A stretch of DNA of 59,279 bases, from contig JAHITZ010000023.1 of assembly GCA_018817405.1 (NCBI GenBank), positions 1 to 59,279 on the forward strand. Reading direction: 5' to 3'. The position numbers and the translations under genes are program-made. The notes under the pieces are model-generated. The model did no database searches. It saw only the letters and a list, made by a program, of their open reading frames with translations, and was not told the DNA's origin. The stretch is from Nanobdellota archaeon (GTDB lineage Archaea > Nanobdellota > Nanobdellia > Pacearchaeales > GW2011-AR1). Shown here piece after piece: positions 20,741-57,885 of the stretch; position 1 is the first letter of the stretch, and each line of letters starts with the position of its first letter.

Positions 20741-21904
20741 ATGAAAAAAAAACAACTAGTTTTTATAGGACCCAAGGCACAGAAAACTGTTACAAGGATG
20801 GCGAGAGTTTTAAAGTATCGGGGGGGATATGAAACTGTGTTGGTTTGTTTTTCAAAGGTTAATGAGGAATTTGTAAAAAACACTTATGATAAAATAATCT
20901 ATCTAGAGTTAGACTTCTCCCCTTCTCCAAGAAATATCTCCAGACTTCTGAAAAAACTTACAGGAAAAGAGGCTAGAACTTTTTTTAAAAAAATAGATGC
21001 ATTGAATCCTTATATAACTCAGATACATGGACCCTCAATAATATCTCTTTTATTCTTTTTGCTTATGAAAAAAAAACCCAAAATTTTTTGGCTGGGGGAT
21101 ATCTGGCACCATTCTGAGAAAAAAATTTCATTTAGAAAAGGAACTGGAAGAATGCAATATGTAAACTACTTAATAGAGAAATTCATCTTTAAAAGAGCGG
21201 ACGGAATAATAAACAAAAGTGGAGAAGGTTCTCTTGATGTCTTAAAATCAAAGATAAAGGGACCTGTTCTTGATTTTCTTCCTTATTGTTTAGATGAATG
21301 GATTGTTCCTCCAAAAAAGAAGAAGATAGACAAGAAAAAAGAGATTCATATAGCATATGCAGGCATGTCTTGGGACAAATGGGATGGACACGCCCCTTTT
21401 GAAGAGATGGTAAGAAAGATAATTGAGCAGGGAATCCATTTGCATTTCTATCCATCAACTATAAAAAAAGAAACAAAAAGTATGTTAGAAAATTTATCAA
21501 AGAAGAATAAATTTCTTCACTTTTATTCTAGACAAGACAGGGATAAAATAAAAAAGATAATATCAAGATATGATTACGGGATACATCTTGATTTTTGTGA
21601 CAGTTCTGTAAATTCAAAATGGTTGGAGGTCGCTATTTCAAGCAAGGTGTTTGTTTATATCGAAGCAGGATTACCAATTTTTTTAAATAAACAATTCAAG
21701 AACCTAACAAACATAGTTGAAAGAAATAAGATGGGTTTAGGAATAACCTATAAAGATTTAGGAAAATTGCGAGAGATTATATCAAAATATAAACCTCCTT
21801 CTGTAGAAGATATAAAAAATGCACAAAAAAATCTTAAGATGAGCAAGCAGATTCACAGAGTGGAAGAATTTTACGATAAAATCCATGCTCTAAGCAAAGG
21901 ATAA
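20741..21904 (+). CDS. GT4-like (GT-B) glycosyltransferase
   Basis: ORF 20534..21904 trimmed to MKKKQLVFIGPKAQKTVTRMARVLKYRGGYETVLV; TATA-like tgtatataag lies ~45 nt upstream, within the extended ORF. Confidence 0.7.
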   Translation: MKKKQLVFIGPKAQKTVTRMARVLKYRGGYETVLVCFSKVNEEFVKNTYDKIIYLELDFSPSPRNISRLLKKLTGKEARTFFKKIDALNPYITQIHGPSIISLLFFLLMKKKPKIFWLGDIWHHSEKKISFRKGTGRMQYVNYLIEKFIFKRADGIINKSGEGSLDVLKSKIKGPVLDFLPYCLDEWIVPPKKKKIDKKKEIHIAYAGMSWDKWDGHAPFEEMVRKIIEQGIHLHFYPSTIKKETKSMLENLSKKNKFLHFYSRQDRDKIKKIISRYDYGIHLDFCDSSVNSKWLEVAISSKVFVYIEAGLPIFLNKQFKNLTNIVERNKMGLGITYKDLGKLREIISKYKPPSVEDIKNAQKNLKMSKQIHRVEEFYDKIHALSKG

Positions 21905-21940
21905 TATCTAAATAAGACTTAAGCATCTTATTATCTTATG

Positions 21941-22348
21941 GGTTTAAGACAGCACCATACAGTTATTAATTCTTTTTTGCTACAACATCAAAATTGCTTA
22001 ATTTCTTGCCAACATCCTCCAACCCCAAGGATTGTTTGATACACCGAGAACCTTTTCTGCGCAAACCCCTTAATTCAGTTCGGGGTTAGCAACAGGTTCT
22101 CAGGTGTGATTAAGACACCAAGAATTCCTTACAATAGAATTCTTGGCTGCGCTCAAGAATCTTCGATTCTTGACGACCCGAGGCACGCCCAGGATTTTAG
22201 TCCGCGGGTTCTTGACAAGATTATCTAAAACAATATTGTTTGAAGCTATTGTTTGTCACATCAAGATTTGCAAAATACAAATCTTAACGCAATCCTTCTA
22301 ATAAACTAGGCGATTAATTTTTGTACAACTCACTAGAGGTTTAAGACA
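21941..22348. ncRNA. Candidate structured RNA / hairpin-array element, no coding potential
   Basis: Six stem-loops in 22041-22285: ACACC.GAGAACC/GGTTCTC.a.GGTGT (22041-22107) with inner AACCCC/GGGGTT; CCAAGAATTC/GAATTCTTGG (22118-22146); TCAAGAATC/GATTCTTGA (22153-22173); ACCCG/CGGGT (22176-22209); AAACAATA/TATTGTTT (22228-22254); AAGATTTG/CAAATCTT (22263-22285). Flanked by direct repeat GGTTTAAGACA (21941-21951, 22338-22348). Confidence 0.55.
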
Positions 22349-22383
22349 ATAATCTTTATAAGATGCATACTCCAATTTCCCAT

Positions 22384-23343
22384 ATGAATAACAAAAAGGT
22401 GCTCATAATAAAAACAGGATATTCTGAAGTTTTGGACGAAGAAGATAACTCAAGAAGAGTTAGTTTTGGAGATGTTTTAAGAACGACTGTTCTATTACAT
22501 CTATTCAAGAATGATAAGGTTACTTGGGTAACTGACAAATTTGCTTTCCCACTTCTAGAAAATAATCCTTTTATTGAAAGACTTCTCCCTTATGACTTCA
22601 CAACAGCACTCCAACTTAAATCTGAAGAGTTTGACGTAGTTATCAATCTTGAAAAAGTTCCAGGAATTTGTGCTTTAGCAGACAATGTTCGTGCAAGAAG
22701 AGCAAGATTCGGTTTTACCTTAAATACACACACAGGAAGAGCCGAGCCATATGATAAAGCTTATGATGTTTTGACAGTGAGCGCAAATGTCAATTTAAAG
22801 AAAGAGAATCAGAGAACATTCCAAGAGCTTTTATTTGAAATGGTCGGTTCAAAATGGAACGGAGAAGAATATGTGTTGGGTTATCAACCGTCAGTACAAA
22901 AAGCATATAACCTCGGTTTAAACGACGAAGTAGGATCCAAATGGCCAGTTAAGAGATGGTCTGAAGGAAAATGGAGTGAGTTAGAGAGAAAATTATCAGA
23001 AAAAGGGTTTAGCCTATCAAGACAAACTAAACAAGATCGGAGAATTTTAATAGATTTAAGAGCCTATATGGACTGGCTAAATTCTTGCGAGTTAATCATA
23101 AGCGGAGATAGTCTTGGGTTACATTTAGCAATTGCTCTAAAGAAAAAAGTTTTAGGTCTGTTTGGACCAACTTCTCACAAAGAGATTCACTTTTATGGGT
23201 TAGGGAAGCCAATTCTCCCTGAAGAAATTAGTTCTTGTATGCCTTGCTTTGAAAAAGATTGCCAGTATGGAGAGCCCTGTCTTGAAAAAATATCTCCTCA
23301 GAAAATTGCCGAAGAAGCAGAGGTTTTACTTCGGGGAGATTAA
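22384..23343 (+). CDS. GT9-family (heptosyltransferase-like) glycosyltransferase
   Basis: KKVLIIKTGYSEVLDEEDNSRRVSFGDVLRTTVLLHLF; ELIISGDSLGLHLAIALKKKVLGLFGPTSHKEI; Cys-rich CMPCFEKDCQYGEPCLEKI. Start trimmed from 22363 because the TATA box (ctttataag) is only a few nt upstream of that ATG. Confidence 0.8.
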   Translation: MNNKKVLIIKTGYSEVLDEEDNSRRVSFGDVLRTTVLLHLFKNDKVTWVTDKFAFPLLENNPFIERLLPYDFTTALQLKSEEFDVVINLEKVPGICALADNVRARRARFGFTLNTHTGRAEPYDKAYDVLTVSANVNLKKENQRTFQELLFEMVGSKWNGEEYVLGYQPSVQKAYNLGLNDEVGSKWPVKRWSEGKWSELERKLSEKGFSLSRQTKQDRRILIDLRAYMDWLNSCELIISGDSLGLHLAIALKKKVLGLFGPTSHKEIHFYGLGKPILPEEISSCMPCFEKDCQYGEPCLEKISPQKIAEEAEVLLRGD

Positions 23344-51227: not shown

Positions 51228-52135
51228 CATCTTTTCTATCTTTAAGAAGATAAAAACAGCATTATGTAAACCTTTCATTCAGAAAATTTTTGTCAAAGAG
51301 CAAACCAAAGCCCGGTTTAAGTAATTTTAATAATCCACCCAGGATCCTTTTTCATTTCTGTTTCTTTCAATATTTTTTCCTTTTCTCTCTCGCTTTTCTT
51401 ACACCATGTCTGATTAATTCATACGTCCCAAAAAGAGCATTTGACCCAGCTATCATGCAAACAGCTCCAGCACCATATATTGACCAATGGTTCATTAATA
51501 GCGCTGTTGATACTACGCTTACTATACAACCAGATATACAAAAAGATGTAGCAGAGTATGTATCATCTGCAAGCTCACCTTCAGCATGATCATAACCTGT
51601 TCCAGACTCATAGCCTTTTCTTATTATAGTGGGTATTGCAAGCAAAGTCCCGGGATAAACACAAGGGGCATAATAAAAAACCTTTGTCATTCCTTTTCCA
51701 ATCCTCTTTAAGGTTGTCCCAACCTCTCTAGCAACATCCCCTATTCTAACTTCCACCTTATCAGCCTTCTGCTCAAGCCCAGCCACCTTTCCTTTATCCT
51801 CGAAAAACCCATCCAACACTACTTCAGACACTCCAACTTTTCTCAAATCTTTATAACTATTCCCCGCTTTTACGGCTTCTTCCAAAAATCTATTCATTCT
51901 CTCTTTGCGTTCTCCTCTTCTCCTCTGCAGAATTCTTTCCCAAGCCTCATCAGAAATATGTTCATACGCCAGTGATTGCCCTTGCAAATCTCCAGAACCA
52001 TCTTCAACATAAGCTTGGTCTCCTAAATGTTCTGTTTTATCTACATCATCAGATGCCGCTGTTTCTAGAGGTCTTTCTCTAACCAACAATCCTAAATCCA
52101 TAAAAAATAGCCACTTCAAGGGTATAAAAATCTTT
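51228..52135 (-). repeat. Left copy of direct duplication (aglB promoter relic + gene)
   Basis: 51245-51277 agaagataaaaacagcattatgtaaacctttca matches 57140-57172; 51835-52135 closely matches 57600-57885. Confidence 0.85.
51367..52100 (-). CDS. Unknown protein: soluble helical N-terminal domain plus C-terminal TM segments
   Basis: Start MDLGLLVRERP (52100), with TATA-like atttttatacc ~25 nt upstream; N-terminal half near-identical to 57600-57860. Confidence 0.6.
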
Positions 52136-57124: not shown

Positions 57125-57885
57125 TTTCTTTCTGTTTAAAGAAGATAAAAACAGCATTATATAAATCTTTCACAATTCGCTTATTTGTTTTTTACATATC
57201 TAAAATATTCACAAACTCCGCTAACTCCCTGAATTCCAAGATATGTTAATACAACTTCTGGATAACAAGGGACAGAGAGAAAAAGTGATGCATCAAAACC
57301 ACCTGCAGCGCCGACGACAGCGAGTTGGCAAGTTGCTTCTCCAGCAGCATGGCTTTTGTATTCCCCCATTCTTCTAAAAGCAGTTGGTGAAGCAAGAAAA
57401 GAAAGAACTATCTGTTGTCCAACCTCAAAAATATCTCTTGTTACTTTTCTCATAACTTCATAATTAGAAATCTTCCTTCTGATAAATTCTTAGTCTCCAA
57501 CGCTCTCTCCTACTTTCTCTTCTAATTCAGAGACTTTTTCCCTCCCATCAAAAAACTCAGTTAATACTTTTTCAGACACTCCTTTCTTTCTAAGACTTTG
57601 ATAACTATTTCCTACCCTTACAGCTACTTCCAAAAGTCTATTCATTTTCTCTTTGCGTTCTCCTCTTCTCCTCTGCAGAATTCTTTCCTAAGCCTCATCA
57701 GAAATATGTTCATACGCCAGTGATTGCCCTTGCAAATATCTAGAACTTTCTTCTACACAAGGTTAATCTCCCAGTTGTTCTGTTTTATCTACATCATCAG
57801 ATGCCGCTGTCTCTAGAGGTCTTTCTCTAACCAACAATCCTCCATCCATAAAAAATAGCCACTTCAAGGGTATAAAAATATTTCT
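57122..57885 (-). repeat. Right copy of direct duplication (functional aglB promoter + decayed gene)
   Basis: Same order and orientation as the left copy; shared stretch catccataaaaaatagccacttcaagggtataaaaat. Confidence 0.85.
57181..57850 (-). pseudogene. Decayed paralog of the 51367-52100 gene; C-terminal ORF 57181..57453 remains open
   Basis: Reverse reading: MDGGLLVRERPLETAASDDVDKTEQLGD*PCVEESSRYLQGQSLAYEHISDEA*ERILQRRRGERKEKMNRLLEVAVRVGNSYQSLRKKGVSEKVLTEFFDGREKVSELEEKVGESVGD*, followed by ORF MRKVTRDIFEVGQQ... Confidence 0.8.

Follow-up and report, generated by a model that had tools for sequence, protein, structure and literature searches.

The PATEs of Haloquadratum walsbyi are gene-less elements that lack inverted terminal repeats and target duplication, carry near-terminal palindromes and occur in nests (PMC3119063). 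ISDra2 inserts 3′ of TTGAT (PMC2806898), and guide/target pairing is described together with a preference of IS608 and ISDra2 for the base that directly follows the target (PMC5934647). Hairpin recognition is described for IS200/IS605 elements, and in archaea only the IS200-type TnpA, not the REP-type, is reported (PMC6006769).

The locus compared here with these systems is an intergenic gap in the window, which is the whole analysed stretch of 59,279 nucleotides. The gap is a nest of dispersed mobile repeats, in which an older repeat, A, has been invaded by element B and separately by element b. DPANN archaeal genomes of about 1 Mb are usually described as streamlined; one such genome here holds two nested gene-less mobile repeat families, and its relatives contain up to 63 array matches.

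The gap lies between an upstream + strand ORF, which ends at 21904, and a GT9-family gene, which starts at 22363. No convincing ORF was found in it, as the preliminary description had stated. That description had also taken both flanking genes for glycosyltransferase genes; this holds for the downstream gene, whereas the upstream ORF has no Pfam match. Archaeal STT3- and Agl23-type proteins are encoded in the window, in agreement with the Candidatus Pacearchaeota origin to which close relatives with these repeats point; a tRNA/tmRNA scan of the window returned no match. The window also contains a 300-bp direct repeat with 82% identity (51767-52066 and 57515-57814). All the stem-loops reported earlier for the gap were found in place, and they are real and far beyond chance. 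The RNA fold of 22036-22220 has an energy of -68.1 kcal/mol (z -5.7) and the DNA fold of 22042-22217 has a z of -7.0, with 0 of 200 shuffles being as good in either case; the single hairpin at 22255-22295 (z -4.1) also lies beyond all 200 shuffles. The nest comprises the following features.

21979 to 22040, + strand: repeat A, 5′ part, CTACAACATCAAAATTGCTTAATT...GGATTGTTTGAT, from aligning 11 uninterrupted A copies to the window sequence from which B had been deleted
Possibly about 20 bp left of 21979, + strand: left edge of repeat A
22036 to 22040, + strand: target pentanucleotide TTGAT, directly 5′ of element B, from the empty A copies and the TTRAY rule
22041 to 22216, + strand: element B, a four-hairpin non-autonomous mobile element of 176 nt, ACACCGAGAACC...GGGTTCTTGAC, from sharp-ended copies elsewhere, the empty site and the DNA fold
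22041 to 22108, + strand: hairpin H1, left end of B; its inner stem-loop corresponds to CCTACTTTAGTTCG of other copies
22117 to 22147, + strand: hairpin H2, perfect 10-bp stem CCAAGAATTC/GAATTCTTGG, arms 22118-22127/22137-22146
22152 to 22174, + strand: hairpin H3, perfect 9-bp stem TCAAGAATC/GATTCTTGA, arms 22153-22161/22165-22173
22176 to 22216 (approximate span), + strand: hairpin H4 and right end of B, ...CACGCC-stem-TTTTAG-stem-GGGTTCTTGAC, conserved in copies of the own genome and in G005/G009
22217 to 22257, + strand: repeat A, middle part, AAGATTATCTAAAACAATATTGTTTGAAGCTATTGTTTGTC, from the alignment of A copies
22258 to 22288, + strand: element b, a one-hairpin insertion, ACATCAAGATTTGCAAAATACAAATCTTAAC, 3′ of TTGTC, missing from 11 of 11 other aligned A copies
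22289 to 22330, + strand: repeat A, 3′ part, GCAATCCTTCTAATAAACTAGGCGATTAATTTTTGTACAAC, from the A alignment, right edge approximate

The arms of H1 (22046-22056/22091-22101) belong to a longer stem that encloses AACCCC/GGGGTT. The stem of element b is formed by 22263-22270/22278-22285; its ends are the same as those of H1-type modules, and it is the last hairpin of the preliminary description.

The own genome, i.e. the genome that carries the window, consists of 1.07 Mb in 66 contigs, is 82% complete and was read only in the stretches around matches. A lack of other genomic copies had been named earlier as a point that would speak against the array; the query 21880-22420 gave 38 matches on many contigs, with unrelated flanks and some of them at contig ends. 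The matches form two interleaved sets, one covering 22035-22218 and the other 21957-22041 plus 22212-22256, and the two segments of the latter set adjoin each other in several contigs. Since the outer segments are adjacent elsewhere and the inner segment is separate, an insertion inside an older repeat is indicated. Repeat A is approximately 170 bp long and has about 22 matches in the own genome and a single weak match among 34 relatives. Its copies in the own genome (L031-L048) are mostly 73-80% identical to one another, and some of their indels are multiples of three. Repeat A is conceivably a coding relic, as the same short peptide (..NFDVVT..) can be read repeatedly on the reverse strand, but stops and shifts interrupt most copies. 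Counted by blastn or with a model, the occurrences of element B in the own genome amount to 15 to 31. Other B copies are located within A-like repeats at different places (L022, L025 and L028), and beyond the B ends the sequences are unrelated between copies.

The insertion point of element B lies immediately 3′ of a pentanucleotide of the TTRAY type; nothing is duplicated, the element has a single orientation relative to the pentanucleotide, and it ends with TTCTTGAC. The uninterrupted A copies (n = 11) mostly read TTTGATAAKATTATC at the B insertion point, the empty repeat being ..ATTGTTTGATAATATTATCTAGAACC... With slashes marking the junctions, the window reads ..TTGTTTGAT/ACACCGAGAACC...GGGTTCTTGAC/AAGATTATCTAAAAC.., which relative to empty A is the form TTTGAT/B/AAGATTATC. 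The junctions of element b are TTTGTC/ACATCAAGATTTGCAAAATACAAATCTTAAC/GCAATCC, and the other aligned A copies carry no insert there. Comparison of the empty A sites with the filled window revealed no target-site duplication for B or b. TTRAY was found directly 5′ of B in 14 of the 15 own-genome copies with a readable left end; its window-wide frequency is 0.66% (p about 4e-30 for 14/15). A broader TTNAY count of 21/39 includes reverse-strand right-end matches and two-hairpin starts, the clean set being 14/15. The right end of B in the own genome is usually TTCTTGAC, with TTCTTGAT in two copies and TTTTTGAC in one, and the base that follows it is A in all 17 copies counted. TTGAC itself serves as the insertion target at two unrelated sites, L042 and L043.

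The genome of the relative G029 contains a two-hairpin unit inside a different host repeat with TATA-like ends. The empty form of this repeat was predicted by joining its two flanks and was then searched for. Copies of the predicted form do exist: eight span the full 92 bp at 81-97% identity and a further one nearly does so, and the interrupted copies carry the hairpin unit at exactly the predicted junction. Empty copies mostly read TTGCT/RTATTCG; in filled ones, TTGCT or TTGAT precedes the unit, and TTGAC and RTATTCG follow. This comparison shows that TTGAC belongs to the element and the left pentanucleotide to the target, and that no duplication took place. The 92-bp repeat (L221-L232) contains two hairpins of its own, has the TATA-like ends TATAGCAACAGAC...TCTCGTTATA and occurs in at least eight full-length empty copies; it is probably a separate MITE family that served as a landing site for hairpin units. 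A two-hairpin unit also recurs in the context GATTACTTAA/CATCAAGAA..TTCTTGAC/GTCCTAAGGATTAACT in several Pacearchaeota (L253, L259, L282 and L284; also L056 and L206).

On the evidence of the aligned sequences, base pairing of the hairpins is kept while their sequence changes. Covariation had been proposed earlier as a check on the hairpins, and it is supported across relatives by a 12-sequence alignment. In this alignment 95.4% of the stem cells are paired and 13 cells show double changes, compared with a shuffled mean of 4.0, and 0 of 500 shuffles reach the covariation score; these counts lean towards structure, since a manually written structure was applied to a MAFFT alignment of 12 sequences chosen by eye. 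Sliding the stem partners destroys the signal, and compensations (T-A to C-G, C-G to T-A) can be read off the raw sequences.

The number of hairpins per element ranges from one to about six. CAAGAA/TTCTTG-type bases occur in nearly all modules, which are connected by linkers such as GAGTGCGCTC or GAGCATGCTC. Because these bases are common to the modules, neighbouring arms are able to pair mutually, and the alternative folds through CAAGAAT/ATTCTTG re-pairing that were noted at the outset are real. The own-genome copies are mosaics of a few modules, and in L029, for example, the two halves of H1 come from different H1 types. Directly after the TTCTTGAC of the first element, L044 has the start of a second one, some G006 copies have a fourth hairpin appended after TTCTTGAC, and G029 copies differ by hairpins appended at the same point, L181 consisting of several units that each end with TTCTTGAC. 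Growth of the element behind its own end is a simple explanation, as TTGAC is also the insertion target at the two unrelated sites mentioned above. The apparently modular make-up of the arrays is perhaps due to a right end (TTGAC) that recreates the target.

A two-hairpin model of the H2-H3 pair (R1), for which 12 diverse copies were used, scores 80.4 bits at 22116-22174 (H2-H3) and detects arrays in 16 of the 56 genomes searched. It has 31 matches in the own genome, 63 in G005, 53 in G006, 48 in G029 and 27 in G009; these numbers exceed those of the arrays, because in some places both strands of the palindromic unit give a match. Of the nine further genomes in the genus, six gave no R1 match. 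The distribution across relatives is patchy and the copy number is high. With a looser linker pattern, 48 stretches were found, about three quarters of them in Pacearchaeota/Nanoarchaeota records; the assemblies are chiefly groundwater MAGs of Candidatus Pacearchaeota or Nanoarchaeota. Single bacterial matches are scattered, and those inspected appear in unrelated, probably coding, sequence. A viral origin was rejected, the three linker-motif matches in viral contigs looking like chance occurrences in unrelated sequence. In G005 a hairpin array lies inside the Y1 transposase gene of an IS200-type element (L092, G005:C61). In G029 one array is located shortly downstream of an apparent tRNA gene (L196, G029:C27).

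That B is a mobile element is close to certain, and an IS200/IS605 mobiliser for it is likely, if well short of certain. Within the nest, B is probably a non-autonomous IS200/IS605-type element mobilised in trans by a Y1/HUH transposase. A Y1 (HUH) TnpA encoded elsewhere would fold the top strand and recognise its hairpins, cutting after TTRAY at the left end and after TTGAC at the right end. The resulting single-stranded circle would be pasted 3′ of a new TTRAY (‘peel and paste’), and TTTGATAAGATT would be the sealed donor site expected at the window locus after excision. If the TTGAC right end is usable as a target, new units would land directly behind old ones, and hairpin trains would be built and shuffled. 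The IS200/IS605 reading is based on the T-rich target, the lack of duplication, the fixed strand, the end hairpins and the +1 base preference. Y1 transposases are present in 26 of the 56 genomes searched, including the own genome. H4 is similar to the right end of a Y1 insertion sequence of the genus. At their right ends, B in G005 and the Y1 insertion sequence in G006 have ACGCCACC-YR-CTTTAG-YR-GGTGGT in common, and two pairs within it show compensating changes. Palindromes are present at both B ends, and the likeness of the right ends of L049 and L088 has a p of 0.0013 before correction for 30 comparisons, the others being weak. No autonomous insertion sequence with B’s own ends and no cognate tnpA were found. 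The Y1 insertion sequences that were inspected end with GATGTCAC, TAGTTCAC or TAGTTTAC, and L100 apparently with TAGTTGAC; none of them contains B’s hairpins. The right-end pattern of B was found in only three genomes of the genus, with no such copy seen flanking a tnpA, and no guide/target covariation was visible. The Y1 copies of the own genome comprise one broken by a stop, one fragment at a contig end and one RAYT-like copy on a short contig. The RAYT-like gene (L087, G000:C5, a 3.4-kb contig) has GGGGACGGTCCC-type repeats on its flanks, which sets it apart from the rest of the genome, and this contig may be a contaminant.

It is also conceivable, although rather unlikely, that B is non-autonomous and is moved by a different enzyme, such as a site-specific recombinase, another HUH nuclease or an unknown transposase. 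Over the 56 genomes, the presence of arrays shows no association with that of Y1 genes (Fisher p 0.77; p 0.07 for those with eight or more array matches), and some array-bearing genomes, e.g. G017 and G030, have no Y1 match. Many arrays lack the IS-type end hairpins, those of G006 and G029 often being without the CTTTAG hairpin. The TTRAY target, the lack of duplication and the strand-specific placement nevertheless match IS200/IS605, as does the similarity of the right end to that of a Y1 insertion sequence. A further explanation regards the array as a functional structured RNA or DNA site (an ncRNA, leader, terminator or protein-binding array) that is under selection and whose spread is secondary. 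It would account for the strong folding and the covariation, and the array is 146 bp upstream of the GT9 start codon; palindrome conservation is, however, also predicted by single-strand DNA transposition. An Rfam scan of the whole window gave 0 matches at the gathering score, and copies are scattered at unrelated loci, within other repeats and within a tnpA gene, so that the structured ncRNA suggested earlier found no support. The suggested leader of the GT9 gene is likewise unsupported, as the same element adjoins many unrelated sequences. The array is moreover absent from six of the nine further members of the genus, and a selected functional site is improbable.

The preliminary description had also offered a MITE-like element with a target-site duplication. 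The kind of element was correctly recognised, as the gap holds multi-copy mobile repeats with palindromes, but a single element gives way to two nested insertions, and the duplication was not borne out. The 11-bp direct repeat GGTTTAAGACA does exist at 21941-21951 and 22338-22348. Markov-1 simulations of the region yield a direct repeat of at least 11 bp in about 8% of cases, and random 541-bp stretches drawn from the window contain one in about 14%, so that GGTTTAAGACA is at chance level; its positions are at or beyond the edges of repeat A, off those of B, and it does not recur beside other copies of either repeat. A classical MITE with terminal inverted repeats, bracketed by GGTTTAAGACA as its target duplication, is further contradicted by the empty sites and can hardly be entertained. 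REP/REPIN elements with a RAYT were rejected as well: the modules begin with TCAA/CACC by inspection, without a GTAG-type foot, and the sole RAYT-like gene is on the separate 3.4-kb contig and is not linked.

IS200/IS605-type mobilisation of B in trans thus remains the preferred reading. More tentatively, the elements may form a Pacearchaeota-wide superfamily of modular hairpin trains, in which the right end is its own target and units add, shuffle and invade dispersed palindromic repeats. If true, this would be a self-targeting, array-building single-strand DNA transposition of a kind described neither for PATEs nor for REPs. Thanks to the precise empty sites, the insertion rule can be tested directly, and the arrays provide a natural series in which to ask how clustered palindromes, BIMEs among them, arise through single-strand DNA transposition. 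As the repeats end contigs here, they limit the assembly of Pacearchaeota genomes.

Among the known systems, ISDra2 and IS608 share with B the insertion 3′ of a short T-rich target without duplication, the hairpin ends and the base preference after the cut. Unlike them, B is without tnpA or tnpB, has two extra internal hairpins and has its TTGAC end within a stem. REP/REPIN/BIME sequences (PMC3116915, PMC6006769) are also high-copy short palindromes in clusters or tandems, with a Y1 enzyme presumed to act in trans; they are bacterial and have a GTAG-type foot, whereas B units insert precisely 3′ of TTRAY and show no such foot. The TnpB omega-RNA resembles B in being multi-hairpin and in ending at the right end of the element, but a TnpB/omega-RNA element was rejected, as no PF07282 match was found in the own genome (82% complete), G005, G006 or G009. 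PATEs are the closest known counterparts of B and share the core features that were tested. B is short and multi-copy (176 nt, no ORF), has no target-site duplication at the empty sites of A and G029, and uses a fixed short target oligonucleotide (TTRAY, 14/15). Both are archaeal and gene-less, with near-terminal palindromes and without inverted terminal repeats; PATEs are moreover related to IS605-type ends and, as B, are often nested with other mobile repeats (PMC3119063). B differs from PATEs in its hairpin sequences, its TTRAY target and its Pacearchaeota host, and its kind carries one to six palindromes in modular trains. Its novelty relative to PATEs is the modular palindrome train and the host group.
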